Under the pieces are notes generated by a model that saw only the letters and a program-made list of their open reading frames with translations, did no database searches and was not told the origin of the DNA. Positions 23,366 through 41,353 of a DNA stretch of 64,000 nt are shown one piece after another. The position numbers and the translations under genes were made by a program. The stretch is taken from positions 2,542,001 to 2,606,000 of the forward strand of contig NZ_CP054587.1 in the NCBI RefSeq assembly GCF_002025255.2, read 5' to 3'. Position 1 is the stretch's first letter; each line of letters begins with the position of its first letter. The stretch is from Halolamina sp. CBA1230. Its GTDB lineage: Archaea > Halobacteriota > Halobacteria > Halobacteriales > Haloferacaceae.

Positions 23366-24109
23366 TCAGATAGTGAGGGTGTTCCCGTTGATTCTGAGCC
23401 ACTCACGGCGTTCTTCGTAGTCCGGTATAAGAGCACCAACAGTGTTCCAGAACGCGCCGGAGTGCTGATCGTGGATTGAATGAGCTAACTCATGAACGAG
23501 AACGTAATCTTGGATCCGAACAGGTGCTCGGATTAGCCGCCAATTGAGGCGAACTGTTCCATCGTCGTATTCGCCCCAACGACCGTCAAGCTCTCCGACC
23601 CAGACTGGCACATCCTCAAGGCCCAACCTTGACTCAAAACGCGACACTCGGTCCGGAAGCTCTTCCTCTGCTCGCTTAACGAACCAGTCGACGACCGCTT
23701 GGTGCTTTCGACGAACGCTCACGTCGTCGACATCACCGTCAAACCGGTGAACGCGAAGAGTGAACGTCTGCTCGTCGAACGATAATCTCGGCTCCGGTAC
23801 GTCCGCCTCGACGACCTCTAGTGAGTACTGTCGTCCGCGATACTGAAGCTTCTCACCGCTCATATACTCTTTCGGATACGGGGGCCCTTCCTGCTCCTTC
23901 AGTCCGTAGAGTTTCTGAAGCAGCCATTCCTGACGAGACTCAAGTACCTCCTCCACGTCCGCTACCGTAGCGGTCATCGGGGCTGTAACAGTCAACTCTA
24001 ACGAACTGTCAATCGAGAGCCCCACAGTCTCCCGACCTTCCGACCAGTCGATTGTATAGGGAACAACCGTTTGGCCGATATGATGCCGACGCTCTAGGCG
24101 TTCGCTCAT
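23366..24109 (-). CDS. YgjP/WLM-type metallopeptidase (DUF45) linked to type I R-M
   Basis: 247 residues. The N-terminal half is beta-rich and the C-terminal half has the zincin motif HELAH at residues 206-210, followed by HSGAFWNTVGALIPDYEERREWL, which matches the YgjP-like family (DUF45). RWGEYDDGTVRLNWRLI upstream is the family's conserved strand pair. Its ATG overlaps the hsdR stop by four bases, so it is the fourth gene of the hsd operon. Such genes recur next to type I R-M systems; their role there is not established. Possibly it trims or turns over a subunit (inference). Confidence 0.88.
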   Translation of the reverse strand: MSERLERRHHIGQTVVPYTIDWSEGRETVGLSIDSSLELTVTAPMTATVADVEEVLESRQEWLLQKLYGLKEQEGPPYPKEYMSGEKLQYRGRQYSLEVVEADVPEPRLSFDEQTFTLRVHRFDGDVDDVSVRRKHQAVVDWFVKRAEEELPDRVSRFESRLGLEDVPVWVGELDGRWGEYDDGTVRLNWRLIRAPVRIQDYVLVHELAHSIHDQHSGAFWNTVGALIPDYEERREWLRINGNTLTI

Positions 24110-27066
24110 TGGTAGTGGTTCCGGGCGAGTTCGATGACGCGGCTGGTCAGCTCCTGGCGGTCATCACCCGAAATGTTGATCTCAGACCGATATAACTCCC
24201 TCGTCACTTCCTTCCGCATCTGATTCTGTAGATGGGTCCGCTCTTTCCATTCCACCTTCGTGACGAACTCCTCAACGGTCGAAACCAGATCAGCCGTGAG
24301 CTCGATCAGGTTTTCCTCACCAGCATCGTGCTCATCCAGTACGTCCTCAACAGCATGGTAGAACGAAAGATCGGTCTCGTCGCGGAGGCCCTTGTTCCGC
24401 GCCTGCTTGTCACGAGAGCGAATCTCGTCCATCAGTTCTCGGAGCTCCTCGATAGTCTCACGTTCATCGTACCGCCCCTCTCGGTACTTTTCGATAAGCT
24501 CCTCAAGACGATCCCGGAGAGAGCCGTACTGCACCGGGTCCTCATCAAACCGGACGTTAATCTCGTGCTCAATCGCATTCTGCATCTCACTCGCACGAGC
24601 TTCGTCGCTCTCTAGGCCTTCAAGTTTCGCGTCAAACTCGACCTCCTCCATGATCGAGACGGGTTCGTCGTTCAGGACCTCGATACCGCGAGAGGTAATG
24701 TGGTCCTGGATCAACTCGCGGACCTTCGCCCCAGCGCCGTCGAGGTTCATTGTCTCGTCACGGTAGCGTTCCTTCGCCTTCCCGTAGATCGTGCTGAGCT
24801 GCTCAAGATCTTCCCGGTAGGGGTTCGCCATCGGATCCGGAAGAACAACGTCCATCAACTGCGAGAACCGCTTAAACGCGTTCTTGAACTCGATTCGGCG
24901 GTCATCTGGCTCAAGCGACTGGACACACTGCTCAACCTCGTCGAGGTCGTCGAAGAACGAGACCGCTTTGCTGTGTGCCGCCTCAAGATCGGGCTGCTTG
25001 TCCTCGACGGGCACCATCGCTCGTTCAACGTCCTTGGAGCTGAACATCGCGAGTGCCTCCTTCAGCTCATCGGAGACACCGTAGTAGTCGATGATGAGGC
25101 CGTGGGTTTTCTCCTCGAACGGGCGGTTCACGCGAGCGATCGCCTGCAACAGGCTGTGCTCTCGCAGTGGCTTATCGAGGTACATCACCTGCGCCACCGG
25201 CGCGTCGAAGCCGGTCAGCAGCATATCGCAGACGATGAGCAGCTCAACCTCACCGTTCGGGTCGACGAACGACTCCTTATACTGGCTCTTCTCGGAATCG
25301 CTTGGCGTCCACTTCTTGATGTGCTCAGGGTCATTGTGCCCCTCGGAGACGATGACCCGGGACTCGGGACCGTTCAGGCTGTCCAAGGTCTCCTTGTAGC
25401 GGATAGCCGCCTCCTTACTGGTGGTGACGACCATCCCCTTGAACGGGTCAGGCACGTCGTTTTCGAAGTGCTCGATGATGTCCAGGGCAACTCGGTCAAC
25501 TCGGGGCTGAGCCTCAGCGAGGTCCTGCGTGCGAGCGTACCGCTTCTGTATCTCCGCCTTCTCCTCTGGTGACTTATCCGAGAAGATGCGATCAAACAGG
25601 CGGTCGAGCGTCTCGCCTTCGAGGTGGATATCTGCGAGACGGCCCTGATACAGAATCTCGACTGTCGCACCGTCTTCCAGCGATTGGTCAATAGTGTACG
25701 TATCGATGTAGTTCCCGAACGTCCGGCGAGTGTTGCGCTCGTCCTTCTCGATTGGCGTCCCAGTGAATCCGACGTAGAAGGCGTTCGGAAGCGCCGTTCG
25801 CATGTTGTTCGCGAGTTCCTTGTCTTGCGTCCGGTGAGCCTCGTCGGCCATCACATAGATGTTCTCGTTGCGGGAGAGCACCGGGAAGTCGTCCTCCTCG
25901 TCCGTGGTCTGGAACTTGTGGATCAGCGTCGTGATCGTCTCACCCGCGTCGTAGGTGAGTCGGTCGCGGAGGTCGTCGATGCTCTGGGCCTTCTTCGGGT
26001 TCGGGAAGCCGCACCGCTCAAACGTCGCGTGAATCTGGTCGTTGAGCGCCCGGCGGTCCGTGACCAACAGGAGTGTCGGGTCGTCCTCGTTCCGGCGCAG
26101 CTTCAGCGCGAGGAAGAGCATCGTGAGCGACTTCCCAGATCCCTGAGTGTGCCAGACGACGCCGCCCTGCGCCTCACTCCGGCCGCGCTTGTTGATCCTT
26201 TCGAGCGCCTTCCGGACCGCCCGGTACTGCTGATACCGGGCGACCATCTTGACCGCGCCGCCCTGCTTGTTCTCGAACACCGTGAAGTGCCTCAGCTGAT
26301 CGAGCAGGCGCTCGGGCTCGAACAGCGCATAGAGCATCCGGTACTGGTCGGGGAGGTACCCGTCGAGGTCGAACAGGTCTATGAGTTCGTCGTCCTCCAA
26401 TGGGTAGGCATCACGCCACGGTTTGTACTGGTCCTTCGGCGTTTCGTACGTGCCCATGACCGCGCCCTCCATCCAGGCGGCGACCGAGAACTGGTTGTAC
26501 CGGAACAGCTCCTCGGCGCCCTCCGACTCACCGTCGCGTTCGTTCTGGTAGCGAGTGAGCTGATCGAGCGCCTCCGACCGTGGCTCCGGGATCAGAGGGC
26601 TCTTGCACTCGACGACGCCGAGCGGGATGCCGTTGACGAACAGCACGATGTCTGGTTTGACGACCTCGACCGGCCCCGCGACCCGGAACTGGTTGAGCGC
26701 GAAGAAGTCATTTTTCTCGGGGTTCTCGTAGTCAATGTACTGGACCGTCTGGTGTTGCTTGCCGTGGCCGCGATCCTGCTCGACGGAGGTGTGTTGGACG
26801 AGCTTTTCGTGGATCTGCTCGTTCTCGTCCATGGTGCTCGTTCCAGCAACTTGCGTGACCTTGCGAACAGCCTTGTTCAGATTGTTCTCGTTGAGCCAGG
26901 GATTCAGGCGCTTTACTGCGTTGCGAAGTCGAGGTTCGAGTACGGCCGAGGACTCGGTCTTGCGGGGATCGACCCAAGTGGTCCGTTGCTGGTCGACGAC
27001 CTCCCAACCGAGTTGCTGGAGCGCGTCGAGAGCGGGCCGCTCGGACTCGGCGTACTCGTCTGGCAT
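24106..27066 (-). CDS. hsdR: Type I restriction enzyme, R subunit (HsdR)
   Basis: 986 residues, full length. The N-terminal nuclease has KPDIVLFVNG...GVVECKSP (PD-ExK type, about residues 135-160). The motor has Walker A HTQGSGKSLTM (about 305-315), DEAHRTQ, GFTGTPIE, LLTGFDAPVAQ and AIARVNRPFEE. The C-terminal third is helical and binds the methylase core. HsdR translocates DNA and cuts unmodified DNA with HsdM2S. The start lies 2 bp after the hsdS stop. All key residues look intact, so the subunit should be active. Confidence 0.95.
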   Translation of the reverse strand: MPDEYAESERPALDALQQLGWEVVDQQRTTWVDPRKTESSAVLEPRLRNAVKRLNPWLNENNLNKAVRKVTQVAGTSTMDENEQIHEKLVQHTSVEQDRGHGKQHQTVQYIDYENPEKNDFFALNQFRVAGPVEVVKPDIVLFVNGIPLGVVECKSPLIPEPRSEALDQLTRYQNERDGESEGAEELFRYNQFSVAAWMEGAVMGTYETPKDQYKPWRDAYPLEDDELIDLFDLDGYLPDQYRMLYALFEPERLLDQLRHFTVFENKQGGAVKMVARYQQYRAVRKALERINKRGRSEAQGGVVWHTQGSGKSLTMLFLALKLRRNEDDPTLLLVTDRRALNDQIHATFERCGFPNPKKAQSIDDLRDRLTYDAGETITTLIHKFQTTDEEDDFPVLSRNENIYVMADEAHRTQDKELANNMRTALPNAFYVGFTGTPIEKDERNTRRTFGNYIDTYTIDQSLEDGATVEILYQGRLADIHLEGETLDRLFDRIFSDKSPEEKAEIQKRYARTQDLAEAQPRVDRVALDIIEHFENDVPDPFKGMVVTTSKEAAIRYKETLDSLNGPESRVIVSEGHNDPEHIKKWTPSDSEKSQYKESFVDPNGEVELLIVCDMLLTGFDAPVAQVMYLDKPLREHSLLQAIARVNRPFEEKTHGLIIDYYGVSDELKEALAMFSSKDVERAMVPVEDKQPDLEAAHSKAVSFFDDLDEVEQCVQSLEPDDRRIEFKNAFKRFSQLMDVVLPDPMANPYREDLEQLSTIYGKAKERYRDETMNLDGAGAKVRELIQDHITSRGIEVLNDEPVSIMEEVEFDAKLEGLESDEARASEMQNAIEHEINVRFDEDPVQYGSLRDRLEELIEKYREGRYDERETIEELRELMDEIRSRDKQARNKGLRDETDLSFYHAVEDVLDEHDAGEENLIELTADLVSTVEEFVTKVEWKERTHLQNQMRKEVTRELYRSEINISGDDRQELTSRVIELARNHYQ

Positions 27067-27068
27067 GG

Positions 27069-28385
27069 TTAGTCGGCGTTGACGCGGACTTTACCGGTGA
27101 GGAGATCTTGCATAAGGCCGCGTTTCAGCTCCTGCAACCGTGATTTGTGTTTCCGCTCTTGCCTGATTTTCTGTCGAATATGACCAAACCCTTTGGATAT
27201 CTCTTTTTGTTCCTCAAGAGTTGGTAAAGCAATTTCGAGGTTACCAATTGCCCCCGTTCCAATATACTGCATTGAGGCTCCGGAAGCATTATCAAGAATC
27301 TGTTGTTGCATCTGTCGATATTGTAGCGCGGTTCCTAAGTATCCTGGTAGGATCCTTTTAGTTATTGGCCTTAAGAGGGCTAACTGAACAAAAATGTTGA
27401 ACCTACGCCCAGTGTCAACAATGCAGATTTTTCCGAGCGATCCAGAGCCAACTTTTCCCAATAAGATATCGCCCTCTTGAGGGTCAACTCTTGGTCTTAA
27501 TTCTCTGTCATTTTCTTCTGATATCCGCTTGCAGTTTTCAAAATCAATCTCCCCATTTTCAATATCTCCTGCGCTCACAAATGGAATACCCTTATCAGTA
27601 TAATCCGGGGTAGAGTGAGGGCCGTCAACGATCTTCTCACAGACTTGTGAGAGTGTTGTAACTTCCCAATCTACTGGTATCGTCGCCAAATTTGAGCCGA
27701 ACCGTACCTCTCTCGTATTCTTTGAATCAGAGCCCGAAAAGAAACTCTGCATCAGCCCACGCTTCAGGTTTTTTGTCTCCTCGATCATTTTATCTGTTTG
27801 GTTAATCTGCTCGTCGACATTCGAGAGGATCTCAGCGATGCGGCGCTGTTCAGGGAGTGAGGGAGAAAGTAGTGGAAGAGATTTCAGATCATCAGTTAAC
27901 ATTCCTTGGATAGTGCTACCCTGGCTGTATCTGTCCCGAATCTTCGCCTGGTTGAGCAATAGATGCCAAGTAACAAAGTCGGGATCAACTTTACTCTCAT
28001 CGAGAACTATCCCGGTTAGATCCTGACTGATGGCAATCTCTTTTTTTGTACGACCTACATTAGCTACGTTTACGCGGGTTCCGAAGAGTATGCTACCCTC
28101 CGGAACAAGAGAAGCGGTGCTATTCTCAAGACCTTCTTGGGTGAGGAAATCTTTCTCCCCTTCGAATTGTGGACCATCTACTACTGCAGCGGTTGTCCAC
28201 GGTATATCCCCTCCCCAGTAATCCTCATTGCCTGAATCAGGCGTACCACCGGAAATAAATCTCGACGCAACGTTACTTAGCGTTGTTACCGTCCATTCTT
28301 CCGGTATTTCAAGCTTCTCAGGACCGACTTGAACCTCTTGGTACCCTTCCTGTAATTTGTCGCTCCCGCTCTGTATCTGGCTCAT
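27069..28385 (-). CDS. hsdS: Type I restriction-modification specificity subunit (HsdS)
   Basis: 438 residues with two target-recognition domains, each followed by a coiled-coil spacer. The repeats begin IPEEWTVTTLSNVASRFISGGTPD and IPVDWEVTTLSQVCEKIVDGPHS; the spacers contain LPEQRRIAEILSNVDEQINQ and LEEQKEISKGFGHIRQKI, each followed by LKRGLMQ. HsdS picks the bipartite DNA target. The gene is distinctly A+T-richer than hsdM and hsdR, as expected when recognition domains are exchanged. ATGA overlap with hsdM. Confidence 0.95.
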   Translation of the reverse strand: MSQIQSGSDKLQEGYQEVQVGPEKLEIPEEWTVTTLSNVASRFISGGTPDSGNEDYWGGDIPWTTAAVVDGPQFEGEKDFLTQEGLENSTASLVPEGSILFGTRVNVANVGRTKKEIAISQDLTGIVLDESKVDPDFVTWHLLLNQAKIRDRYSQGSTIQGMLTDDLKSLPLLSPSLPEQRRIAEILSNVDEQINQTDKMIEETKNLKRGLMQSFFSGSDSKNTREVRFGSNLATIPVDWEVTTLSQVCEKIVDGPHSTPDYTDKGIPFVSAGDIENGEIDFENCKRISEENDRELRPRVDPQEGDILLGKVGSGSLGKICIVDTGRRFNIFVQLALLRPITKRILPGYLGTALQYRQMQQQILDNASGASMQYIGTGAIGNLEIALPTLEEQKEISKGFGHIRQKIRQERKHKSRLQELKRGLMQDLLTGKVRVNAD

Positions 28386-29944
28386 CGGTAATCCAACTCC
28401 TCCATATACTCCTGCAGTTCCTCGTCGGTCTTCTGGCGTTCCTCGGCCAGTTTATCCAACTCCCGTAGCTTCTCGCTCACGTCGATGGGCTCCTCAGGCT
28501 CGGTTGTATCGACGTAGCGAGGCACGTTCAAATTCCAGTCATTCTCTTCGATTTCCGCTAAGTCAACAAGCCGACTGTGGTGGTCCTCCTCGCGCCCACT
28601 CAGGAACGTCTCTGCAAGGTACTCGACACCTTCATCGGTCAGTTGGTTCTGGTTCGAAAGTTCCTCAAACACTTGTACGTCTGACTCTCGGAGGGTCTGG
28701 TCCTCGGCATAGATGAAGTGAACCTTCCCCTCTCGCTCGTCTGGCTTGTCCTTGTTCAGAATGAGAATACAACCCGGCGACGAGGTGTTGTAGAACAGGT
28801 TCTCCGGTAGCGCGATGACGGCCTCGATGAGGTCATCTTCCAGAATCGGCTTGCGGATTTTCTTCTCAGAGCGCGAACGGAACAGCACACCGTTGTCCAT
28901 CACAACGCCCGCCTTTCCAGTCTCATTGAGCGAGGCGGTCATGAGCTGGATCCAGGCCCAGTCGCCACGGTTCGAGGGTGGGAGCCCGTACGGGAAGCGG
29001 TTGTACGGCTCGTTGTCCTCGACCCAATCCTTGTTCCACTCCTTCTGGTTCCACATCGGGTTTGCGATGACCCGGTCGAACACCTCCAACTCGTCGTGCT
29101 TCGTGACACGCTTGGGGTCGGTGATGGTGTCGCCCTTCTCAATCTTGGCGTCGTAGAGCTCGTGGAGCAGGACGTTCATCTGGCCGATGGCCCACGTGTT
29201 CAGGTTCTTCTCCTGGCCGTACAGCGAGATGTCCGTCATGTCGCCACCCTGCTCACGGATGTGTTCGGCGGAGTAGATGAGCATCCCACCAGAGCCACAG
29301 CAGGGGTCGTACACGCGGTGGCCGGGCTCCGGGTTCACGCACTTGACAATGAGGCGGACGACCTCTCGGGGGGTATAGAACTCGCCGCCCTTCTTCCCGG
29401 CGTCGTCGGCGAACTCGCGGATTAGGTACTCGTAGGCCCGTCCGAAGATGTCCGGATCCTTGAGGTCCTCGTTCCGGTAACGGTGCTTCGAGAAGTGCGA
29501 AACGAGATCAGAGAGCAGTGAGTCCGGCAACCGCTCTTTATCGTTGAAATCGACGGTGGTGAGCACGCGGTCGGCGATTGGGTCGTTCTCATCCTCGACC
29601 GCTGCAAGTGCCTTGTTCAGCGCCGCACCAACGTCTGTCTCCTGGGCCTTGATGTGGTCCCACCGAGCCCGTTCGGGGATCCAGAACTCCTCGTGGAGGT
29701 CTCGGTCGTCCCGAGCGGTCTCGACGGGGATGTCCAGTTCCTCGGCAACCTCTTCGGTCTCCTCCTCGAATCGGTCGTTGGCCCGTTTCAGGAACAGCAG
29801 CCCGAAAATGTAGTTCTTGTAGTCCGCAGAGTCGATGCTTCCACGGAGTTTGTCCGCGGCCGCCCAGAGGTGTTTTTCGAGAGTAGGGAGCGTCAGTAGA
29901 TCAGATTCCGTCCCAGGTAGCGTCGCCTGGTCGTCTTCAGCCAT
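28382..29944 (-). CDS. hsdM: Type I DNA adenine methyltransferase (HsdM)
   Basis: 520 residues. N-terminal helical domain (LWAAADKLRGSIDSADYKNYIFGLLFLKR), SAM motif I DPCCGSGGML (about residue 220), FYTPREVVRLIVK just before it, and catalytic motif IV written NPMW (VIANPMWNQKEW) where most type I enzymes have NPPF. It methylates adenine in the site chosen by HsdS. MAEDDQATLPG at 29944 is preferred over a Met four codons upstream. It is the first gene of the hsdM-hsdS-hsdR-metallopeptidase operon. Confidence 0.94.
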   Translation of the reverse strand: MAEDDQATLPGTESDLLTLPTLEKHLWAAADKLRGSIDSADYKNYIFGLLFLKRANDRFEEETEEVAEELDIPVETARDDRDLHEEFWIPERARWDHIKAQETDVGAALNKALAAVEDENDPIADRVLTTVDFNDKERLPDSLLSDLVSHFSKHRYRNEDLKDPDIFGRAYEYLIREFADDAGKKGGEFYTPREVVRLIVKCVNPEPGHRVYDPCCGSGGMLIYSAEHIREQGGDMTDISLYGQEKNLNTWAIGQMNVLLHELYDAKIEKGDTITDPKRVTKHDELEVFDRVIANPMWNQKEWNKDWVEDNEPYNRFPYGLPPSNRGDWAWIQLMTASLNETGKAGVVMDNGVLFRSRSEKKIRKPILEDDLIEAVIALPENLFYNTSSPGCILILNKDKPDEREGKVHFIYAEDQTLRESDVQVFEELSNQNQLTDEGVEYLAETFLSGREEDHHSRLVDLAEIEENDWNLNVPRYVDTTEPEEPIDVSEKLRELDKLAEERQKTDEELQEYMEELDYR

Positions 29945-30185
29945 ACTCCACCACAACTCCCGAACCTAATAATTGCAGCGTAACTCTGGTTGGCACGTAC
30001 AGCCGTCTTCGATTTTCTGCGGACATCCTGCTGCAATTGAGAAGTTTCGACGTGACCGGAGCTTGTGACGCATCTCTCGTTATCCGGGCTCCGTTGTTGA
30101 TAGCACGTGCGCGCAGAACAGCCTTCATGCGGGCCCCTTCACTATCATAACGATGAACTTTAGTTCTAATCTGAGGTGGGCTGTG

Positions 30186-30728
30186 TCACCCACTCGTACT
30201 TGTGCCGTAGTTCATCTTGTTTCGGAAATTCTCTTTAAGCCGGTTTGCTTCGTCTAAGTGGTCGCTGGCCCGTTCTAATTGGCTTTCAGCTTCAATTGGC
30301 TCATCAGGCATCGCGAACGCTGCGTTTTCCCGAGCTGCGGATGCCTCGGTCATTCGCCAGTAGTACTGAACGAGTAGCTGAAACCCCTCCCGGGTGTTGG
30401 TGCCCTCCTCGTACTCATCGGCTTTGTTTTCGACAGCACTATTCAGATCGTCGTACCGCTTTCGGGCCTTCTGAAAGTGCATATACGCCCTAGAGTAGTC
30501 TTCACTCTCGTAAGCGTCAGACCCGTCATTGAACTGATTCAGAGCCTCCTGCTCTTTCGATTCGTGATTGTCAAGCCAGGTGTTGATCGTGTCCCGCCAC
30601 GAGGGGGTTTGCTGTGAATTGTTTGGCTCTTCAGCAGCCCCTTCTTCGGCGGCACAACCTGCAGTACTGAGACTGAGAGCAGTTACTGAACCTGCTAGAA
30701 ATTTGCGCCGTGGGAGCTGTGTCAACAT
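30186..30728 (-). CDS. Tat lipoprotein, helical, unknown function
   Basis: 180 residues. Signal PRRKFLAGSVTALSLSTAGC with twin Arg at residues 7-8 and lipobox STAGC near residue 25 marks an exported lipid-anchored protein. The mature part is strongly helical and charged (a Glu/Asn linker, then ALNQFNDGSDAYESEDYSRAYMHFQKARKRYDDL), like a TPR-type or four-helix fold. No family recognised. It lies divergently from the wHTH gene at 30847 and may share its control region. Confidence 0.75.
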   Translation of the reverse strand: MLTQLPRRKFLAGSVTALSLSTAGCAAEEGAAEEPNNSQQTPSWRDTINTWLDNHESKEQEALNQFNDGSDAYESEDYSRAYMHFQKARKRYDDLNSAVENKADEYEEGTNTREGFQLLVQYYWRMTEASAARENAAFAMPDEPIEAESQLERASDHLDEANRLKENFRNKMNYGTSTSG

Positions 30729-30846
30729 ATGATAGTACCCTGTGCCCAGCCTAGATACAATATTCTTTTGACTTGTTTGTTTTTGCTGAGACTCAGATTA
30801 TCCGTTTACGGTCTTTATTCGCTGAGGGTCAGCACTTTCGGAGAAG

Positions 30847-31077
30847 ATGGGTCTCGTCTCCGAGTCGAAACTGCGGATCTTGCAGTCTATTCAGAAGGAG
30901 CCCACATATGGGTATGAGTTAGCTGAAACCCTCGACTTGAGCAGCGGTTACGTCTACACTCATCTCAAGGAGCTCCGCGAAGAGGGCATGATTGAAGTCA
31001 CAGAAGAGGAGGGCGATAGGAAAATATACCAACTCACCGAGAACGGTGAACTACTCCTCCAAGCCCTCGAAGATTAG
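30847..31077 (+). CDS. PadR-like winged-helix regulator (short)
   Basis: 76 residues that form a single winged helix: SKLRILQSIQKEPTYGYELAETL (helix 1-2, with the PadR GYEL block), SSGYVYTHLKELREEGMIEV (recognition helix) and the wing DRKIYQLTENGE. It has no C-terminal dimerisation extension, so it is a minimal PadR/ArsR-type protein. A TATA-like GTCTTTATTC at 30811-30820 fits a short leader. It probably regulates the divergent lipoprotein gene or element functions (inference). Confidence 0.82.
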   Translation: MGLVSESKLRILQSIQKEPTYGYELAETLDLSSGYVYTHLKELREEGMIEVTEEEGDRKIYQLTENGELLLQALED

Positions 31078-31083
31078 AGGAGA

Positions 31084-31236
31084 TCAATGGTCAACAATTT
31101 CTGACCACTCACAACCACACGTTTCGCAGGTGTAGCATTTCTTTGTAATCGACCCTTCAGGCTTCTCGAACATCCATACGTCGCTATCGTCGCCGCATTG
31201 CGGGCAAAACTCCTCGACCTTCCATGCGGTCGGCAT
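31084..31236 (-). CDS. Tiny zinc-ribbon protein (50 aa), operon gene 8
   Basis: 50 residues, MPTAWKVEEFCPQCGDD..., with CPQCG at 11-15 and CETCGCEW near the end; the two CxxC pairs are about 26 residues apart, a typical zinc ribbon. The start is placed at 31236, 4 bp after the stop of the upstream gene, because the longer frame upstream is an atypical shadow. Last gene of the tiny-gene operon. Possibly a DNA- or protein-binding ribbon. Confidence 0.7.
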   Translation of the reverse strand: MPTAWKVEEFCPQCGDDSDVWMFEKPEGSITKKCYTCETCGCEWSEIVDH

Positions 31237-31240
31237 TGGT

Positions 31241-31471
31241 TCAGTTCTCCTGCGCAGGTCGAAGGTCTCGCCACCGAAAGCTGTGCGTCGACCCGTTTTC
31301 GAACTCCACCGAGAACAGGTGGGAGTCACGTTGGTCGCCGGTCTCAGTACCTGCGTTATCCTCCAGTACGTCCACAACTTCCCCGTGACGGCCATGAAAC
31401 TGATCAAAGTCAGGGTCCTCAGTATCGGGGATGTCGACCCGTACCGGATCACCTACGTCAAACCGTCTCAT
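31241..31471 (-). CDS. Small SH3/KOW-like protein (76 aa), operon gene 7
   Basis: 76 residues: RRFDVGDPVRVDIPDTEDPDFDQFHGRHGEVVDVL, then a short acidic insert, then HLFSVEFENGSTHSFRWRDLRP. The pattern (VGDPVRV, GRHGEVVDV, F/V-V-F, W/R-DLRP) looks like the small five-stranded barrel of KOW or L21e-type proteins. Function unknown; an RNA- or protein-binding adaptor is possible. Its start lies inside the 3' end of the preceding gene (14-bp overlap). Confidence 0.7.
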   Translation of the reverse strand: MRRFDVGDPVRVDIPDTEDPDFDQFHGRHGEVVDVLEDNAGTETGDQRDSHLFSVEFENGSTHSFRWRDLRPAQEN

Positions 31472-31760
31472 TGTTTGCAGCTTGGTTCGGGAGGCTCCTG
31501 TCTCTGACGGTCACCGATACTAGCTTGTGCGCAAAGAAGACGCCGAGGAGTATCGCTTCATCTTCGCCTTCAGTCCCGGGCTCAACTTCCTCAGGACAGC
31601 AATCGAGACACCAGGTACGACGTGGGGTCCAACCACCCCTGTCGTAGTAGGTAGCGTACATCCCTGCTTTATCCCCATGCTGAATCCGAGCAGAGCAACG
31701 GTCGCAGATGTGTCCCGTACCCACCCCGTTCATCGCCGCCGCAGGATCGGGACGGCTCAT
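31458..31760 (-). CDS. Zinc-motif protein (100 aa), operon gene 6
   Basis: 100 residues. HICDRCSARIQHGDKAG (CxxC with a following His) and TWCLDCCPEE (CxxC) about 30 residues later suggest one zinc site, as in HNH-less treble-clef or LIM-like small proteins. The C-terminal half, LLGVFFAHKLVSVTV, is hydrophobic but too short to call a membrane segment. Overlaps the preceding gene by ATGA. Confidence 0.7.
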   Translation of the reverse strand: MSRPDPAAAMNGVGTGHICDRCSARIQHGDKAGMYATYYDRGGWTPRRTWCLDCCPEEVEPGTEGEDEAILLGVFFAHKLVSVTVRDRSLPNQAANNETV

Positions 31761-31918
31761 TCGTCGTCGCCTCCTAGGACCCGCTCAAAATTGTCTTCGG
31801 TCATGTCGATGGCTCGCTCAACGTACTCCTCTTCACCTGTTAGCTGACCCACGTATCGGAACACAGGGTACCACTTTCGAATCCACCACCGCATTAGACC
31901 GAAATACCGATCAAGCAT
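31757..31918 (-). CDS. Tiny basic/aromatic protein (53 aa), operon gene 5
   Basis: 53 residues starting MLDRYFGLMRWWIRKWYPVFRYV; the first half is rich in Trp, Tyr and Arg and could be an amphipathic helix at the membrane, the second half is acidic. No family known. The start is chosen to give an 8-bp overlap with the preceding gene; a longer form from upstream Met codons is possible. ATGA overlap with the next gene. Confidence 0.5.
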   Translation of the reverse strand: MLDRYFGLMRWWIRKWYPVFRYVGQLTGEEEYVERAIDMTEDNFERVLGGDDE

Positions 31919-32315
31919 CGTCGACCACCTCTCGGCGCCACGCATCGAGATCCGGTGTCCTGAGCGTCCACCTGTCTTCCGGGAGTTCCGAAACCACCTC
32001 ACGCTTGAACTGTTGGTAGTGCATTGTTGCGAACTCGTCGTCGTACGCGTGCGCGAGGATGGCGATTGCTAGCTGCGCCGGTCCACTTCCCGAGTACGCC
32101 CAGGCGTACCCACTCGGGGAAGCTGATAGGAGGTCGTACCGCTTGGGGAGGGTGTCTCCGTCGACGGTGACTGTGTACTCTTCGCCCACCGGTTCGGATG
32201 GGCTGTGGTGTCCGTGGTAGACGTGTTTTGTCGACGTACCCGACTGTCCGTCGCTGGAGGAAGCTGCTCGAAGGGTGTTTTCGCTGCTCGAACCCCGGGG
32301 GAGAGGCCGCATCAT
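31911..32315 (-). CDS. DUF6166-like protein, operon gene 4
   Basis: 134 residues. The N-terminal 45 residues are a low-complexity Ser-rich stretch; the C-terminal domain reads EYTVTVDGDTLPKRYDLLSASPSGYAWAYSGSGPAQLAIAILAHAY with YQQFKREVVSELPEDRW after it. This is the pattern of DUF6166, a small domain common on plasmids and in phages, with the Gly-Ser-Gly-Pro-Ala-Gln-Leu-Ala helix start. Biochemical role unknown. ATGA overlap with the SWIM gene. Confidence 0.75.
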   Translation of the reverse strand: MMRPLPRGSSSENTLRAASSSDGQSGTSTKHVYHGHHSPSEPVGEEYTVTVDGDTLPKRYDLLSASPSGYAWAYSGSGPAQLAIAILAHAYDDEFATMHYQQFKREVVSELPEDRWTLRTPDLDAWRREVVDDA

Positions 32316-32695
32316 TCCACCTCCCCAAGCCGGTTCAGCGCCTCCCGTAGTTCGTCAGCAGTTTCGATGAGATCCTGGGCCTGCTGTTCCAGCTCATCGG
32401 CATTCGCTTCAAGATCGCTAGCGGTCTCGGTGAGTCGAGTTTCGAGCGTGTCGGTATCAACCTGACCGACCTCGATTCGGACCCGCCGGATGTGTTTGCA
32501 CTCGGCCAGCCCATCTCGGTGCCGAAAATCTGGACAGGTACACGAGGGTTCACCGGCGATGTCTACTGTGTACTCCGACCCCGACTGCGTGGTAACCGAG
32601 AACAGCGCATTCCCTTCCTCGATTACCGTCATGTGTTCCGTAACAGCCCGGATAGTCCGTGGCTCTACCTCGGGCTGAATTGACTCGGAGCTCAC
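32312..32695 (-). CDS. SWIM zinc-finger protein with coiled coil, operon gene 3
   Basis: 127 residues. A SWIM motif CTCPDFRHRDGLAECKHIRRV (CxCx(n)CxH) lies at about residues 53-73, preceded by a beta hairpin (YTVDIAGEP). The C-terminal 45 residues, SDLEANADELEQQAQDLIETADELREAL, form a clear coiled coil. SWIM domains bind DNA or protein. It resembles stand-alone SWIM proteins found on haloarchaeal plasmids. ATGA overlaps on both sides. Confidence 0.85.
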   Translation of the reverse strand: MSSESIQPEVEPRTIRAVTEHMTVIEEGNALFSVTTQSGSEYTVDIAGEPSCTCPDFRHRDGLAECKHIRRVRIEVGQVDTDTLETRLTETASDLEANADELEQQAQDLIETADELREALNRLGEVE

Positions 32696-33189
32696 GTCCC
32701 ATCACCCCCAGATTCACGGACCGGAACCCAGTACTGTTCGTCTCTGGTGAGCCTCTCCCTGCACTCTAGGTGACACGCCTCCTCGACGAGGTCGATTGCT
32801 TGCTTTGCCGCCGAGAGCGTCAAGGTACCGGCCTTGAACGTGTGTCCGCGTTCGAGCGTTTCCAGCTTCGTCGTTAACCGCACGTCGACGACCGGCCCGA
32901 AGCTCCGGTTGTTGACGCAACCAGCCCGAGAACTCCACGGTCCGCGAAGTGTAACGGACTCCCCATCGGTGGTCGTTATCTCGAAGCAGTCTCCGGTGTA
33001 GCCCCCGTCGTTGCCGTTTCCGGACCACGCGAAATAGGACACGTAACCGTCCTGTATGGCACACCAGATACTGTCCTCGTGCTCGAACCGCAACTCGGAC
33101 CGGTCAGGGATCTCGTCGACAAGCACCTCTAGACGTGGGGCGTTGCCAACATCCTCCCTCCAGTCGACCTGCGCATCAAGGAGCTTCAT
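32692..33189 (-). CDS. Hypothetical protein (165 aa), operon gene 2
   Basis: 165 residues from MKLLDAQVDWRED; mostly beta strands with Trp- and Gly-rich turns (YFAWSGNGNDGGYTGDCFEITTTDG; TLRGPWSSRAGCVNN) and a helical Cys-containing end (AIDLVEEACHLECRERL). The fold suggests a small sandwich; no family recognised. The chosen start overlaps the preceding stop as ATGA; six more residues upstream are possible. Confidence 0.65.
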   Translation of the reverse strand: MKLLDAQVDWREDVGNAPRLEVLVDEIPDRSELRFEHEDSIWCAIQDGYVSYFAWSGNGNDGGYTGDCFEITTTDGESVTLRGPWSSRAGCVNNRSFGPVVDVRLTTKLETLERGHTFKAGTLTLSAAKQAIDLVEEACHLECRERLTRDEQYWVPVRESGGDGT

Positions 33190-33425
33190 CGACGCTCCAC
33201 CTCGCACTGGTCGGGAAGATGCTCTTCGTCCAGTACCTCAACACCACACTGGATGCAGCGAAGGTACCGTTCCAGGTACTCGGTCTGACCCTCGTGTCTT
33301 CGATTGGGGTCGGGGTGCTTTCCGGGCACCCACTCCGCTTTGTCGATAACCATATGCTGACCGGCCTGTTTCGCATCCGGGTGTCTGTCCGACAGTGATT
33401 CCTCTATCGAGTTCGTTTGTCCCAT
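33186..33425 (-). CDS. Small zinc-motif protein (79 aa), operon gene 1
   Basis: 79 residues, first gene of the overlapping tiny-gene operon. The C-terminal part reads YLRCIQCGVEVLDEEHLPDQCE, with CIQCG and a later His/Cys, a probable zinc site. ATG 33425 is chosen because AGGAGG (complement of 33435-33440) lies 9 nt upstream; an ATG at 33434 touches that sequence and is too close. A strongly folded leader starts immediately upstream of the Shine-Dalgarno sequence. Confidence 0.65.
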   Translation of the reverse strand: MGQTNSIEESLSDRHPDAKQAGQHMVIDKAEWVPGKHPDPNRRHEGQTEYLERYLRCIQCGVEVLDEEHLPDQCEVERR

Positions 33426-33440
33426 TGGCTTCATCCTCCT

Positions 33441-33519
33441 AGGGAAGCCACAGACCGGTGCTCTGACACCGGTTTTTGCTCCGGAACGGATCCGTTAGCA
33501 GTGGCTCTGTGGGTTCCCT
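33441..33519 (-). ncRNA. Structured leader of the tiny-gene operon (possible riboregulator)
   Basis: A 79-nt fold. The outer stem is 14 bp with one mismatch (33441-33454 with 33506-33519). Inside are a 7-bp hairpin (ACCGGTG, 33454-33460, with CACCGGT, 33467-33473) and a perfect 12-bp palindrome AACGGATCCGTT at 33485-33496. It ends one base before the AGGAGG of the first gene. This could be an RNA switch or a protein-bound leader; as DNA it could equally form a cruciform. No known riboswitch recognised. Confidence 0.5.
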
Positions 33520-33736
33520 AAGTAAGTATAGGACTTGTATTGGTAAAGTGTCACTTAAAGCAGCAAACTCTGTCTTATTTGCTGATTAGGACAGTTCGGT
33601 CTCATTAGAAGTTGATAGCAGGTGCTCCGTCAAGACTCACCAGCGTACTTACGCTCGATTTGATTATATAAATCACACGGCGGACGTGAGTACTCCATAA
33701 TGTGTTTCTATGTAGTACTCACTGTCACTGAAACAT
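33520..33736. promoter_or_regulatory. Control region between the replication gene and the tiny-gene operon
   Basis: A minus-strand TATA-like TTTATATAATC is at about 33663-33673 and could drive the tiny-gene operon with a leader of about 200 nt that includes the folded element. A perfect 9-bp inverted repeat GTGAGTACT/AGTACTCAC lies at 33686-33694 and 33714-33722, just after the end of the replication gene; it may be an operator or part of a terminator. Confidence 0.4.
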
Positions 33737-35959
33737 TTATTGCGTAGGTCGTTCTGTTTCCCGCAGTTGCCCGTGACGGGGTGGACCGTTGAGCGTCCAC
33801 CGCTTAGTGCGTCCTACCCAGTCACCTTTCTCAACAATTCCACTGTCGGCGAACTGATTGAGCTTTTGGAGCGTCCGGCTATGACTGAGTGTATCGTTGA
33901 CAAGTTGGGTGTTTACCCGTTCGACCACCTCGCGCGTTCGTAGGGGTCCGTCGGCCCGGTCGAGGATGGAAATTATCGCCTCGGTCGCACCATTTCGCTT
34001 CTCTCCGCGACCAAAGATGTCGATGCTGAACGTTTCGTCGGCGTTGATCAGTTCCTCGTCGAACATCCGGGTGAACAGGTAAACAAAAGCAGTCTCGTCC
34101 CGGTTAGTGTCGCGGGCGGCTCTGCGAGCGGCCTGATAAACCTCGCTGTGGACTATGTTCTTAAGCACGGTCTTGGCCTGACCCTTATATCGATCCTCGC
34201 CGCGAACCGCGAAGTTGTCCTGTATGATTTTATCGTCGTAGTCGAGGAGCGCCATCCACTGACGAACCGCATCGTCTCCGGGGTGAGGGGCACCGATGAC
34301 GGCATGGAGTCGACTCTTTTCAAATGTCCGATCACTCCGTAGACCTCCGAAATGGAGTATCTGGTCCGCGTACGCTAACTCCATCACCTGATCAGCGTAC
34401 TCGCTATGCTTCACCTTCCGTTTCATCGCTTTCGACGTGACGACACTCACTTCGTCTGCGCCGTGATAGTCGACGATGGCCTGTAGAATAGCGAGAAACT
34501 CACGAGAGGAGACGTTGTCCGGATTGTTAATCGGCACCATGTTTTCCGTCAGCTGGCGGAACTCGATGTCGAACGCCTCAGAGACGACGGTTCCACGCTC
34601 CTCACGTTGGTTCGGACTCGCGGACTCAAACTCGACTCCCGTCAGTGACTCCCATCTAGCTTCCGAGCCAGTGGCGTCCAGCGCGATGACCTGTTCGGCC
34701 TCTTGAAGTGGCTGGGGCGGGCTCGCAACGGCCACAGGATTATGGCTGTTGTTGACAGTGTTTCTTGTTAGGTCAAGGACAACGGTATACGGGACATCGT
34801 CCGAATCAAACATCATGTGGTTCGTATTCTCCGTATCCTCTCCTTTTAGCAGAGCTAACGTTAGAAGCGGAGCCTCAGCCCTGTGGTAATCGTAGGAATC
34901 AACCTTCACTGGAGCATTGCGAGTAATCAGTGGATCCCTGTCGTCGTCTTCGTTGAGTTCCGAGAGCGGGGCATAGTGTTCACGAATGTGCTTAGCGACC
35001 TCCGCTTTGACTGCGTCTTTCGCCCGGAGCGCCCCTTTGTACCCATTAGGTCCGATCTCGATAGCGGAGAGAAAGTTCTCAGTTGCGGCCTCAATATAGT
35101 CTTCCGTGAAAGTCTTGACGAGTTCACCAGAAACGTCCTCATCAGCGATGACGGTCGTACCCGATACGACCTCGGGCATATTGAGCAGAGAAGCACCACA
35201 GATGATGATGTCGGCCTCGCCCTGCTCTATTCGTTCCATCCGATTCTGCATTATCCGTCGGTGCCGACAAGCGGGTTCGCTATCCGGGTCGGTAGGATCG
35301 TAGCCACGTTTTTGCCCTTCCTGTTGACACGGAAGGGGGTACAGGCCGCTGTCGAAATACTGCGGATCTACGATTTTCGCCCATTCGGAAGAGGCGGCGT
35401 TATGGATTGCACCCGTAGTAGCGCCCCGTTGGACGTAGGCGTCTATCTCTTTAGCAACCTCGTTGACGTACTCCTCCTCAGCGTTCTTGGAGAGCGTCTG
35501 ACATACAGCGGTGTCATCATCTGGGGTCGCCACTGTCCAGCCACCCTCGCCATCGACCTTGAGTTGGGGAATGTCTCCAAACCGTTCGCGTGGCGAAGGG
35601 ACGTACACGACGTTAACCTCACCAACGAGCTCTTGCTCAGTCAGCGTCTCCAAGACCGACTGATACGTTTCCTGTCGATTGCGATACTCTGTCGTGGCGA
35701 GGACAAACGTTCGGTCAGTACGGGAGGCAATTTGGGGAACGACGGTCTCTTTGACGTATGACTTCCCGCCACCAGGCACAGTTCGTAGGAGCCAGTTACT
35801 GTTCAGCTGCGACAAGAGCCACCGAAACAATTGCTCGTTTTCTTCCCATAGGTCCTCGGCGTCAGTCGTGACGGTCTTGCGAAGCTCTTCCGGGGAGATC
35901 CCATCTGCTTTCGCTGCAACCGTGGTCCGCTCAGCTTGTTCAGCCTCCGACATCGTCAC
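33737..35959 (-). CDS. P-loop helicase-like protein, candidate replication protein
   Basis: 740 residues. Walker A is TVPGGGKSYVKE (about residues 60-71) and a Walker B-like VIADEDVSG lies near 265-275, which is a DEAD/DEAH-type arrangement with DED. Several Cys between them (CQQEG...ACRHRR, about 210-235) could ligate an Fe-S cluster or zinc as in XPD-type helicases, but this is inference. The final 100 residues look like a winged helix (LRTREVVERVNTQLVNDTLSHSRTLQKLNQF). It is the largest non-hsd protein of the element and follows two small DNA-binding-type genes, so I propose replication initiator/helicase. No exact family recognised. Confidence 0.7.
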   Translation of the reverse strand: MTMSEAEQAERTTVAAKADGISPEELRKTVTTDAEDLWEENEQLFRWLLSQLNSNWLLRTVPGGGKSYVKETVVPQIASRTDRTFVLATTEYRNRQETYQSVLETLTEQELVGEVNVVYVPSPRERFGDIPQLKVDGEGGWTVATPDDDTAVCQTLSKNAEEEYVNEVAKEIDAYVQRGATTGAIHNAASSEWAKIVDPQYFDSGLYPLPCQQEGQKRGYDPTDPDSEPACRHRRIMQNRMERIEQGEADIIICGASLLNMPEVVSGTTVIADEDVSGELVKTFTEDYIEAATENFLSAIEIGPNGYKGALRAKDAVKAEVAKHIREHYAPLSELNEDDDRDPLITRNAPVKVDSYDYHRAEAPLLTLALLKGEDTENTNHMMFDSDDVPYTVVLDLTRNTVNNSHNPVAVASPPQPLQEAEQVIALDATGSEARWESLTGVEFESASPNQREERGTVVSEAFDIEFRQLTENMVPINNPDNVSSREFLAILQAIVDYHGADEVSVVTSKAMKRKVKHSEYADQVMELAYADQILHFGGLRSDRTFEKSRLHAVIGAPHPGDDAVRQWMALLDYDDKIIQDNFAVRGEDRYKGQAKTVLKNIVHSEVYQAARRAARDTNRDETAFVYLFTRMFDEELINADETFSIDIFGRGEKRNGATEAIISILDRADGPLRTREVVERVNTQLVNDTLSHSRTLQKLNQFADSGIVEKGDWVGRTKRWTLNGPPRHGQLRETERPTQ

Positions 35960-35976
35960 CAGTGGAGGCTAAATCG

Positions 35977-36297
35977 TCAGTCGAGCCCATCTTCCCACTC
36001 TTCCTCCAGTTGCTCTAGCTTACGTTCGCGCATCATTCGTTTTTCAATTAGCTGATGCACAAAAACCGAGAACACAACATCCTGTGATCGGAGGTACTCC
36101 TCATGTTCATCAGTCACGGTAACAGAGGTCCGAATCAGCTCATGCTCATCAGTATCGCGTGATGTAGCAGAGGGAAATTCATCCTTGCCCTCCATCACGT
36201 CGTTAATCGCCTCACGAACGAGCCCGCTCAGCGTGAAGGCACTGTCTTGAACGTACTGGTAGTGATCGTCACGAAGACGGACTTGTCGATCTTTCAT
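35977..36297 (-). CDS. Tandem ribbon-helix-helix protein (106 aa)
   Basis: 106 residues with two RHH-like units. Unit 1: RQVRLRDDHYQYVQDSAFTLSGLVREAIND (residues 4-33). Unit 2: RTSVTVTDEHEEYLRSQDVVFSVFVHQLIEKRM (about 56-88). Each shows a short strand with alternating polar residues and two helices, so one chain could make a full RHH DNA-binding pair. The C-terminus is a charged helix. It overlaps the upstream coiled-coil gene by 29 bp and precedes the helicase-like gene by 17 bp. Likely a repressor or partition/copy-control protein. Confidence 0.65.
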   Translation of the reverse strand: MKDRQVRLRDDHYQYVQDSAFTLSGLVREAINDVMEGKDEFPSATSRDTDEHELIRTSVTVTDEHEEYLRSQDVVFSVFVHQLIEKRMMRERKLEQLEEEWEDGLD

Positions 36298-36607
36298 TTT
36301 CTAATTGCTTTCGGAGTACTTCTTTTTCTTTCCTAAGATCCTGGATTTTCTCTTCGTACGCGTGCTGGAGCTGATGTACCTCTTCGTAGACAGACTGAAG
36401 TTCGTGCTCGAACGTCTGTGGGTCGGTTTCTGATTCTTTCCAAAGCTGCATGCCGTGCTCTACGAGAGTTGCAACCCCAACAGACCACTGTGGTTCTCCA
36501 TTCGGTTGTTGTAAGCCCATCTCATGGGTAATGAACTCACCAACCTCTTGTCGTGATAGACTATCCGTCCGCGAGAAGTCAATCGCTTGGAGATTATCAT
36601 CACTCAT
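36269..36607 (-). CDS. Small coiled-coil protein (112 aa)
   Basis: 112 residues. The N-terminal half is mixed (SLSRQEVGEFITHEMGLQQ; VGVATLVEHGMQLW); the C-terminal half, HELQSVYEEVHQLQHAYEEKIQDLRKEKEVLRKQLENE, is a long coiled coil. It is first in the three-gene operon with the tandem RHH protein and the helicase-like protein. Similar small coiled-coil proteins accompany replication or partition genes on haloarchaeal plasmids; no family assigned. Confidence 0.65.
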   Translation of the reverse strand: MSDDNLQAIDFSRTDSLSRQEVGEFITHEMGLQQPNGEPQWSVGVATLVEHGMQLWKESETDPQTFEHELQSVYEEVHQLQHAYEEKIQDLRKEKEVLRKQLENERSTSPSS

Positions 36608-36623
36608 TGGTTTGAATCGGATT

Positions 36624-36660
36624 GTACATGCTGACTTGTACTGTACATGTGAATATGTAC
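36624..36660. promoter_or_regulatory. GTAC-repeat operator cluster upstream of the replication operon
   Basis: Four GTAC cores at 36624, 36638, 36643 and 36657, arranged as two pairs with 14-bp spacing, 17 bp before the start codon of the coiled-coil gene. Two of them sit in TGTACATG. Symmetric short sites are what RHH proteins bind, and the operon encodes a tandem RHH protein, so autoregulation is a reasonable guess. Confidence 0.5.
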
Positions 36661-37107
36661 GGGAGGTGCCTTGAAACTTTCGGCGGGATGATCACGCCAT
36701 CAGAGATAGAGTCCCGTGCTAAAGGGGAGATCTGACTCTTTCGAACAGGCTGTCCGACTGGCGATGGTATAAACCAATCATATGCTGTCCCTAAGTCTAC
36801 AAACTTGTCGGAGATAATAGTCAGCGGAAGTATTCACATACCGACTGAGGCCAAAACTGGTCCCGTTATAGTGAGACCTGGGCTGGTGGGCTCGACCTCT
36901 ACTGCTCCGGTTGAGGGAGCGTTATCAGGGGGTGGTGTGGATTCGAGCGGCGGCGAGAAACCGGGGCCACGGTCGTCCCAGTACTGACTTTCGAGTGCGC
37001 GTGATCGGTCACCATCTGCTTGGCAAGGGTGTCGCTGACCGCCGTACGTACATACACACACGTACCGTCGGTACGTCGTCTGAAGAGTAGGAGAAGGCGA
37101 AGTTTCC
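36661..37107. other. Intergenic stretch, candidate origin/control region
   Basis: No convincing gene. The right end has a second GTAC cluster: palindrome GTACGTAC at 37044-37051 and CGTACC-GTC-GGTACG at 37061-37075. GTAC cores at 37048 and 37062 again have 14-bp spacing. Together with the cluster at 36624-36660 this could be the replication origin or partition site. Short frames on both strands here have atypical composition. Confidence 0.4.
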
Positions 37108-37548
37108 TTATACGGGTGGGCGTGGTCGTCGCCGTTGCTGACTCCCGCGCATCTTGAACGCCGCGACAAGCAAGAATAGCGTGATTCCAGTCATGAAAAT
37201 AATCACCCCAGTCAGTTCAGCACCTAGCATCATTGAGGCCCCCATCGACATTAGATAGTACAGCACAACTCCTGGCCAGCCCGCAAACACGTAAGCAAGG
37301 GCCGTCGAAACGAGTGTCGAGATGACTGGCAACACGCTCAGAACTACGATAGCTGTGGACAGAATCGACATCGGGTCAACGCCCAGCGTATTTCCTGCGA
37401 CGGGCTGGAGTGCGTTAGCGAACTCTAAGAGGATCAGTTGCATCGTTGGAACGAGTACAGCACTCGCAACGGTACCTTGCCACGCGCGTTCAGCTATATC
37501 AGCGGTCGCATCGGCGGGCCCACCGGCTGGTTTTCTCGGAGTGGACAT
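37108..37548 (-). CDS. Multi-pass membrane protein of the element
   Basis: 146 residues from MSTPRKPAGG. Hydrophobic segments include VASAVLVPTMQLILLEFANAL, ILSTAIVVLSVLPVISTLVSTALAYVF, VVLYYLMSMGASMML and VIIFMTGITLFLLVAAF, then a basic tail RGSQQRRRPRPPV. About four membrane helices, no catalytic motif, function unknown. The start at 37548 avoids six extra residues of an upstream Met and follows the common MST- pattern. Confidence 0.65.
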   Translation of the reverse strand: MSTPRKPAGGPADATADIAERAWQGTVASAVLVPTMQLILLEFANALQPVAGNTLGVDPMSILSTAIVVLSVLPVISTLVSTALAYVFAGWPGVVLYYLMSMGASMMLGAELTGVIIFMTGITLFLLVAAFKMRGSQQRRRPRPPV

Positions 37549-37748
37549 TCTGACTTGACAGAGCACCTATAGCCACAAAAAGGCCATTAAGTAACAGATT
37601 GTGAACGGTTAGGCCTAGAGGCGATGACAGGGCATCAATATCGGCTCTCGACGGATCTGCTATCAATAACGGAGCTATAAAGCTACCTGAGGGACTGAAA
37701 TAATTCAACAGTATGATTCATTACACTCGGTAGAGGGGAGTTCGGGAC

Positions 37749-38591
37749 CTAGTCCTCAAACTCGTCAAGATCCGTGTCCCCCGCGAGGTCGCATCGCCAC
37801 GGGTCGTCCTCAGGAGTTGGCTCCACTGCGTGCTCGATTTCTTCCTCGGTGAACGCTTCCTCCGGTTCGCGGTAGGCATAATCGGGACGGTCGTACTGAA
37901 GCACCCGTCGCCACCATTTACGCCCGAGCTTGGTTTCACCAGACGTTCTTGCTCCGTGAACACGGAAGTGCGGCCAACCTCTTCCGCGACCTGCTCCAGG
38001 GTAACTGTGTTTATCAGCGACAATTGAGCCAACTTTTCCATCGGGATCGAGCTCTTCGTCGCTAACCGGCGGTTCGTACAGAGGATCGTGGTCAGCATCT
38101 TCTCGCGCCTTCGCCCGGTCCACCATAGTGTTCGAGAAATATCCATTCGAGTGAGTGACCTCGCGGCTAGAGTTGGCGCGAGCACACACCATTGCGGCGG
38201 CGATAGCGCAAAGTCGCCGCGCCCAGTCGTTATCTCCGTATCGCCCCTTTGCGAGGTCCTCATAACGCAGAACGTGATCTATCGCTTCGTTGCCCGCTAC
38301 GAGGTCTTCGATTGTCACTAGCACAGCACGGTCCCAATAGTGAGTTTCGTAGCCGGGCCCTGATCGGACAAGCTCCCACGCAGCAAAGGCCGCCTTCTCA
38401 ACGTCAGACCGACGCACTGCTTTTTGGAAGAGCGAACTGATCACGTCTCTGCGATAACCGCCCTTGGTTTCGTACCACGGCATCTCCTCTCCAAAGTCGT
38501 TAGTCTGTTCTTCGTCAGGATCATCGTCGTCGTCCGGTTCTTCGAGTTCTCCGTCCTCACCGAACCGGTACTGATCGTTGCTGTCGCTCAT
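37749..38591 (-). CDS. MgsA/RarA C-terminal-domain-like protein without ATPase
   Basis: 280 residues. After an acidic N-terminus (residues 1-40, PDDDDDPDEEQ) comes GGYRRDVISSLFQKAVRRSDVEKAAFAAWELVRSG..., which follows the pattern of the RarA/MgsA/WRNIP1 C-terminal helical domain ([21 protein letters not shown] type). RRLCAIAAAMVCARANSSREVTH corresponds to the next helices, and KHSYPGAGRGRGWPHFRVHG recalls the C-terminal H-x-PG-KxLGxGxxYP-H block. The AAA+ ATPase half is absent. It may interact with replication forks or clamp-loader-like partners of the host (inference). Medium confidence. Confidence 0.55.
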   Translation of the reverse strand: MSDSNDQYRFGEDGELEEPDDDDDPDEEQTNDFGEEMPWYETKGGYRRDVISSLFQKAVRRSDVEKAAFAAWELVRSGPGYETHYWDRAVLVTIEDLVAGNEAIDHVLRYEDLAKGRYGDNDWARRLCAIAAAMVCARANSSREVTHSNGYFSNTMVDRAKAREDADHDPLYEPPVSDEELDPDGKVGSIVADKHSYPGAGRGRGWPHFRVHGARTSGETKLGRKWWRRVLQYDRPDYAYREPEEAFTEEEIEHAVEPTPEDDPWRCDLAGDTDLDEFED

Positions 38592-38742
38592 CGGTGGTCT
38601 CTGGGGCTGAAAACCCGATTAGATATAACACGTGTCAGGTATTAAGAACTTCTAATAGAGGACGGGGATCACATGAACTCAGTGTGAGTTAATCTGGTAA
38701 ATCATACGTCAGGAATTTACGGCTACGTTTAGATGTCCAATT

Positions 38743-40212: not shown

Positions 40213-40259
40213 CGTAATAAGGTGAAAATAAATAGCAATCGTATCTGATGCTCTCTGAC

Positions 40260-41258: not shown

Positions 41259-41353
41259 CGTTCGTTCACCGCAATCCCGGGCGTGGAACGGAGGCCTGTG
41301 CTCCGTTGGCTGGGGTGGCGGTGACGCCGTCGAGGCGAAGCCGAGTCGGCGAG

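Follow-up and report, generated by a model that had tools for sequence, protein, structure and literature searches.

Eight small genes of Halolamina sp. CBA1230 probably form an early operon within a haloarchaeal integrative element; the operon mRNA would start with a structured, translation-controlling leader, and the encoded proteins would be independent small nucleic-acid- or protein-binding factors, not one complex. The further proposal that this leader represents a natural archaeal RNA switch of a new class, gated by a ligand or a protein, the first in haloarchaea, present in mobile elements of more than half of the haloarchaeal genomes and timing the translation of early or zinc-protein genes, is in our judgement evenly poised. 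Hardly any natural RNA switch is known from archaea, one experimentally determined case named in 2021 being the fluoride riboswitch of Thermococcus kodakarensis (PMC8241225), and the leader makes archaeal translational control directly testable in Haloferax. The leader also indicates where operons of small unannotated genes, often of mobile elements, begin, and offers a handle for finding early or counter-defence genes.

The genes are located in the window, the whole stretch of 64,000 nt that was analysed, on the minus strand between positions 31084 and 33425. A regulator gene faces them and is found beside the operon in several relatives as well.

33425-33186, minus: g1, 79 aa, CxxC...C protein
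33189-32692, minus: g2, 165 aa, without known family
32695-32312, minus: g3, 127 aa, SWIM-type zinc finger and coiled-coil-like C-terminus
32315-31911, minus: g4, 134 aa, DUF6166
31918-31757, minus: g5, 53 aa, Trp-rich peptide
31760-31458, minus: g6, 100 aa, strongly conserved four-Cys zinc-type protein
31471-31241, minus: g7, 76 aa, SH3-like, distant relative of eL21, clade of the viral 'L21e' proteins
31236-31084, minus: g8, 50 aa, zinc ribbon weakly similar to TFS, relative of the HRTV-15 gp42 Zn finger
30847-31077, plus: PadR-type regulator, facing the operon

From g1 to g8, neighbouring genes overlap by 4, 4, 4, 8, 4 and 14 nt, and the last two are separated by a 4-nt gap. The true start of g1 is the ATG at 33425, which is preceded by AGGAGG and whose methionine is invariant among orthologues. 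That the eight frames are genes and did not arise by chance follows from homologues with conserved order in related elements, from dN/dS values of 0.05-0.28 indicating purifying selection (determined against L040, L042, L041 and L053, and only where synonymous sites were unsaturated), and from invariant putative metal ligands. The latter are C60, C63 and C77 in g1, C52, C54, C66 and H68 in g3 (CxC...CxH, 8 orthologues), C19, C22, C51 and C54 in g6, and C11, C14, C37 and C40 in g8, which are shared by the two sequences available.

The initial annotation of this DNA had described eight tightly overlapping minus-strand frames of 50-165 residues as one operon lacking obvious enzyme motifs, at least four of them with zinc-type Cys/His motifs, and had named a SWIM finger, a DUF6166 member and a KOW/SH3-like barrel. 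All frames are present, gene order is conserved, no enzyme motif was recognised, and the ligands listed above bear out the zinc-type motifs of g1, g3, g6 and, from two sequences, g8. The SWIM assignment of g3 holds through its motif and a match to phrog_17897 (E 1.1e-14), though the score against the SWIM family PF04434 stays below the Pfam cut-off (17.8 against 19.6 bits). By profile comparison, g4 certainly belongs to DUF6166 (PF19663, E 2.8e-27, 95 bits at a cut-off of 27), a family found frequently in haloarchaea and in viral contigs, and g7 resembles eL21/SH3 proteins, albeit weakly. Of 170 genomes of the family, 149 encode SWIM relatives, most of them distant. The TFS profile TIGR01384 gave 17.2 bits with g8 and its cut-off of 64.75 was not reached. 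No fold match in the PDB was obtained with the usable best model of g4 or with the best of five AF2 models of g2 (pLDDT 82.6), and literature searches for papers on DUF6166 and for haloarchaeal SWIM proteins together with integrases returned none.

The operon resides in an integrative element:

22554-41472: integrative element, flanked by 16-nt repeats of the tRNA-Ala 3' end, with a tyrosine integrase inside

This element of 18.9 kb is integrated at tRNA-Ala (22482-22553), the repeats being located at 22538-22553 and 41457-41472, and the integrase gene (40260-41258) adjoins the right-hand repeat. Between 22 and 42 kb of the window, GC content drops from about 68% to 46-58%. The cargo includes type I restriction-modification genes, assigned to HsdR/S/M from the sequence, and a YgjP-like metallopeptidase. 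Directly upstream of the operon, a 740-aa protein is encoded that was recognised as a P-loop protein from the sequence as well; related elements differ in the replication-type genes upstream. Between the integrase and the remaining element, an ApeA-like HEPN protein with both Pfam domains is encoded (38743-40212). Beyond the right end, 12 nt of the tRNA-Ala 3' end recur at 41808-41819 as a second partial copy, possibly left behind by an earlier or a nested insertion.

Comparison of upstream sequences revealed a conserved block that precedes g1, outside the coordinates of the initial annotation, and extends up to its start codon. The elements of this leader, including a hairpin alternative to the main fold, are the following:

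33519-33426, minus: leader RNA, about 95 nt, 3' end at the g1 start codon
33519-33506 with 33454-33441, minus: helix P1
33499-33478, minus: hairpin P2
33473-33454, minus: hairpin P3
33450-33426, minus: alternative (sequestor) hairpin, UGGCUUC (33450-33444) pairing with GAAGCCA (33432-33426)

When 24 leaders from full and reduced elements were folded singly, nearly all adopted a three-way junction composed of the closing helix P1 and two hairpins. In L057, the leader retains P1 and a single hairpin, without clear P3 or sequestor, and it was excluded from the covariance model. For the window leader, a folding energy of -41.0 kcal/mol was calculated, compared to -27.4 +/- 3.5 for shuffled versions (z -3.9). 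Because a MAFFT alignment of all leaders placed P1 wrongly, the model was built up starting from seven closely similar leaders. This model, R1, from which the window leader had been left out, was searched against 84 loci (1.44 Mb); it recovered the window leader (E 1e-9) and most other leaders, gave additional candidates in L069, L094 and L272, and matched operon starts with the exception of one weak antisense hit. Double-sided changes are present in 24 of 29 pairs, and the covariation score of 0.397 (shuffled 0.154 +/- 0.012, slid at most 0.097) lies, in alignments that were fitted to the model, above all slid versions and, on every measure, above all 500 shuffles. With 70 sequences, likewise fitted to the model, the score is 0.498 against 0.168 +/- 0.008 in shuffles, and 92.9% of the cells are paired. 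The leader has the conserved secondary structure, backed by compensatory changes, that characterises cis-regulatory RNAs. Searches against the 4227 families of Rfam 15 yielded as best match a microRNA family far under its cut-off (E 0.17), and eight leader loci gave nothing up to E 0.1. By these comparisons, it is a previously undescribed RNA.

A model built from 24 leader sequences, R2, matched in 228 of 391 Halobacteria genomes, representing 66 of 86 genera. Outside the haloarchaea, a phylum-wide sample of roughly 124 genomes contained two marginal matches, about the number permitted by the threshold of E 0.01. Of 70 copies, 65 lead into an ORF of 35 aa or more whose ATG is located exactly at the model's end; the position of the AUG is partly built in, since the covariance model includes it, but the open frame behind it is not. 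TATA-like motifs peak 26-30 nt upstream of the leader, with 55 in that 5-nt bin and 17 in the next highest. With a TATA-like box at about 30 nt, transcription should start at the leader, which is predicted to belong to the 5' UTR, directly preceding the start codon.

The first genes behind the leader are diverse. Commonest is a cluster of mostly SWIM-type proteins (29 copies), followed by a cluster of proteins of about 380 aa with a weak OB-fold match (13), the g1 family (11), a 101-aa family (5), C105 (2) and singletons. The genome analysed here contains a second copy of the leader (G000:C1:2414115-2414206, L315), located directly before a gene for a SWIM-finger protein of 170 aa. The conserved protein of about 380 aa, with its weak OB-fold match, is preceded by the leader in L299, L302, L303, L304, L313 and L316, in some genomes in more than one copy. 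Eight leader-like copies are present in a single genome (G300:C1; L352, L353 and others), two of them before near-identical zinc-type peptides of 45 aa.

Translational riboswitches and the autoregulatory leaders of ribosomal protein genes share a structured 5' leader with an alternative hairpin that masks the SD sequence directly before the start codon. The leader is predicted to have the same features: it is structured, abuts the start codon, and contains a potential SD-masking hairpin. Unlike those leaders, it has no match in Rfam 15, is confined to haloarchaea within the sample, and precedes small genes of mobile elements. In the putative sequestor, the SD sequence AGGAGG (33440-33435) is located in the loop and the GAAGCCA arm directly before the AUG. 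As UGGCUUC is part of the 3' strand of P1, formation of the sequestor excludes the lower part of P1. The arms change jointly in other loci, where GCUUCC/GGAAGC, GCCUUCU/AGAAGGC, UGUCUUUC/GAAAGACA and GGGUUC/GAACCC are found, and 28 different arm pairs of at least 6 bp occur. Over 70 leaders, the mean longest stem is 6.37 bp, compared to 4.77 +/- 0.14 bp when the 12 nt before the AUG were shuffled and 5.04 +/- 0.15 bp when tails were swapped between loci; in none of 300 trials of either control was the observed value reached. An SD-like motif is present inside the loop in 49 of the 70 leaders, and the best stem is shorter than 6 bp in 18. According to computed complementarity, the leader would be able to adopt an alternative fold masking the ribosome binding site, as translational riboswitches do.

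P1 and the sequestor may be regarded as alternatives. With P1 formed, the SD sequence would be free and the operon translated; with P1 opened, the sequestor would mask it. Since P1 appears to be by far the more stable structure, ON would be the default state and a factor would be needed for OFF; the minimum free energy favours P1 so strongly that the sequestor may be minor without a factor acting in trans. The use of SD sequences is not strictly needed in haloarchaea (PMC8241225). As the first genes mostly specify SWIM or zinc proteins and few junction bases are invariant, our guess is that the OFF factor is a protein encoded by the element, possibly the SWIM protein, which would then act on the leader of its own mRNA. 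If the leader were instead a ligand-sensing riboswitch, the junction would be stabilised by a small molecule or an ion, and the SD sequence would thereby be kept free. The aptamer-like junction, the mutually exclusive SD-masking hairpin and the many copies before unlike genes (SWIM, OB-fold, g1 and 101-aa types) are compatible with such a sensor, but few positions outside the helices reach 70-90% conservation and the downstream genes have no common metabolic theme, so that we give this possibility modest weight. A passive structure without any switch, serving transcript stability, ribosome recruitment or constant presentation of the SD sequence by a helix, is unlikely: P1 is indeed of high stability (the entire leader reaching -41 kcal/mol) and stops immediately upstream of the SD sequence, yet the complementarity of the pre-AUG segment to the 3' strand of P1 is locus-specific and exceeded that of swapped tails in 300 of 300 trials.

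A search for co-occurrence of the gene families, suggested by the initial annotation, revealed the operon in the same order in 16 loci (tblastn and HMM mapping), 15 of which contain at least four of the eight families and one, L265, three together with C105 and C150; a DNA-level search of plasmids and phages gave no match. Genes are replaced at fixed slots (C105 for g1, C150 for g2, C46 for g6), others are inserted (C16, C18, C52), and some are lost. The idea that C150 is a diverged g2 was rejected, as their profiles have no similarity. A reduced version consists of the SWIM gene and g6 only (L271, L273, L274, L277, L278), in several cases with the integrase C32 and/or a winged-helix gene upstream and with convergent restriction genes downstream. 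SWIM and DUF6166 genes are neighbours in 13 of the 16 loci.

These data bear on the earlier suggestion that tight coupling ensures constant stoichiometry of one multi-protein assembly on nucleic acid. Translational coupling, conserved order and the frequent adjacency of SWIM and DUF6166 genes would agree with an assembly. One obligate complex is nevertheless very improbable because genes are swapped, inserted and lost at fixed slots down to a two-gene version; moreover g2, g7-g8, SWIM and DUF6166 genes each occur independently of the operon. The shuffled and distant arrangement regarded beforehand as speaking against a complex was encountered in part: SWIM and DUF6166 genes are separated by about 6-16 kb on plasmids.

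On haloarchaeal plasmids, a SWIM relative and an ArdC-like gene are located side by side, close to DUF6610 and DUF6166 genes and next to orc1/cdc6; the SWIM and ArdC-like genes adjoin in 7 of 16 plasmid loci. This arrangement recalls the leading or early anti-restriction regions of plasmids (ArdC). The window differs by lacking ArdC, for which tblastn found no match here or in the operon loci searched, and by combining SWIM and DUF6166 in one coupled micro-operon. In L262, L263 and L264, the plasmid stretch is conserved as orc1/cdc6 or an AAA ATPase, SWIM, ArdC-like, DUF6610 and DUF6166 genes with varying inserts, which in L264 include mercury resistance genes.

In 12 of the 16 loci, the genes downstream of the operon encode a restriction system. 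It is HsdRMS in the window, L040, L044, L053 and L057, and a PglX-like system, sometimes together with a PLD helicase, in L042, L043, L048, L049, L052, L091 and L267. The proteins could accordingly be accessory or control factors of these systems and not of the element, a reading also suggested by g7 next to a type IIG enzyme in HRTV-15 and next to HsdR, helicase and methylase genes on plasmids. We consider this somewhat unlikely, as the type of cargo is highly variable, the operons of L041 and L280 have none in view, and restriction genes are not clearly enriched over the same islands in general. Independent factors acting at entry or activation of the element, in protection from host defence and/or in the timing of restriction cargo, are favoured by the element-borne and early position, the restriction cargo, the ArdC neighbours of relatives and the viral g7-g8 homologues. 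By association, such a role in establishment, counter-defence or timing is plausible, and to that extent the anti-defence or early gene pack proposed initially fits the surroundings.

Homologues of g7 are present in many islands, on plasmids and in four Hafunaviridae (HRTV-15, HRTV-24, HJTV-3, HSTV-3). The viral proteins were described in the literature under the name 'ribosomal protein L21e' and as the first case of ribosomal proteins in archaeal viruses (PMC8651126), a claim on which the results on g7 bear. They share 63-64% identity with g7 over 75 aa. In HRTV-15, a g8-like Zn finger is encoded just before the g7 homologue (gp41; MZ334516.1, 34543-34770), and the type IIG enzyme follows. 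A phylogenetic tree separates a clade of 49 g7 proteins, gp41 among them, from true eL21 (support 0.70, branch 1.3); the distance of gp41 to the closest g7 is 0.49, and that to every eL21 exceeds 2.6. Similarity between g7 and eL21 is limited to an SH3-like core of 49 columns (hhalign 89%), PDB searches gave weak eL21 matches (E 0.18-0.41), and PF01157 was not matched up to E 1. About 30 N-terminal residues of true eL21 are absent from g7 and the HRTV-15 protein, and the real eL21 of the host is encoded elsewhere. It appears that g7 and the viral 'L21e' proteins constitute a separate mobile SH3-like family that is often located next to restriction genes and does not group with true eL21. Given the separate clade, the absent N-terminus and the lack of a PF01157 match, the name ribosomal protein, and with it a ribosomal role, seems doubtful.

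Restriction genes are not clearly more frequent among the immediate neighbours of stand-alone g7 genes than among genes at least 6 kb away in the same islands, integrase and HNH genes being the exceptions. A role of g7 as a subunit of a single restriction type was rejected, as its neighbours are too diverse and not clearly enriched compared to the same islands. In a plasmid hotspot represented by L184, L185, L187 and L188, DUF262 and TIR genes are followed by a hypothetical gene, g7, and then varying nuclease, helicase or methylase cargo.
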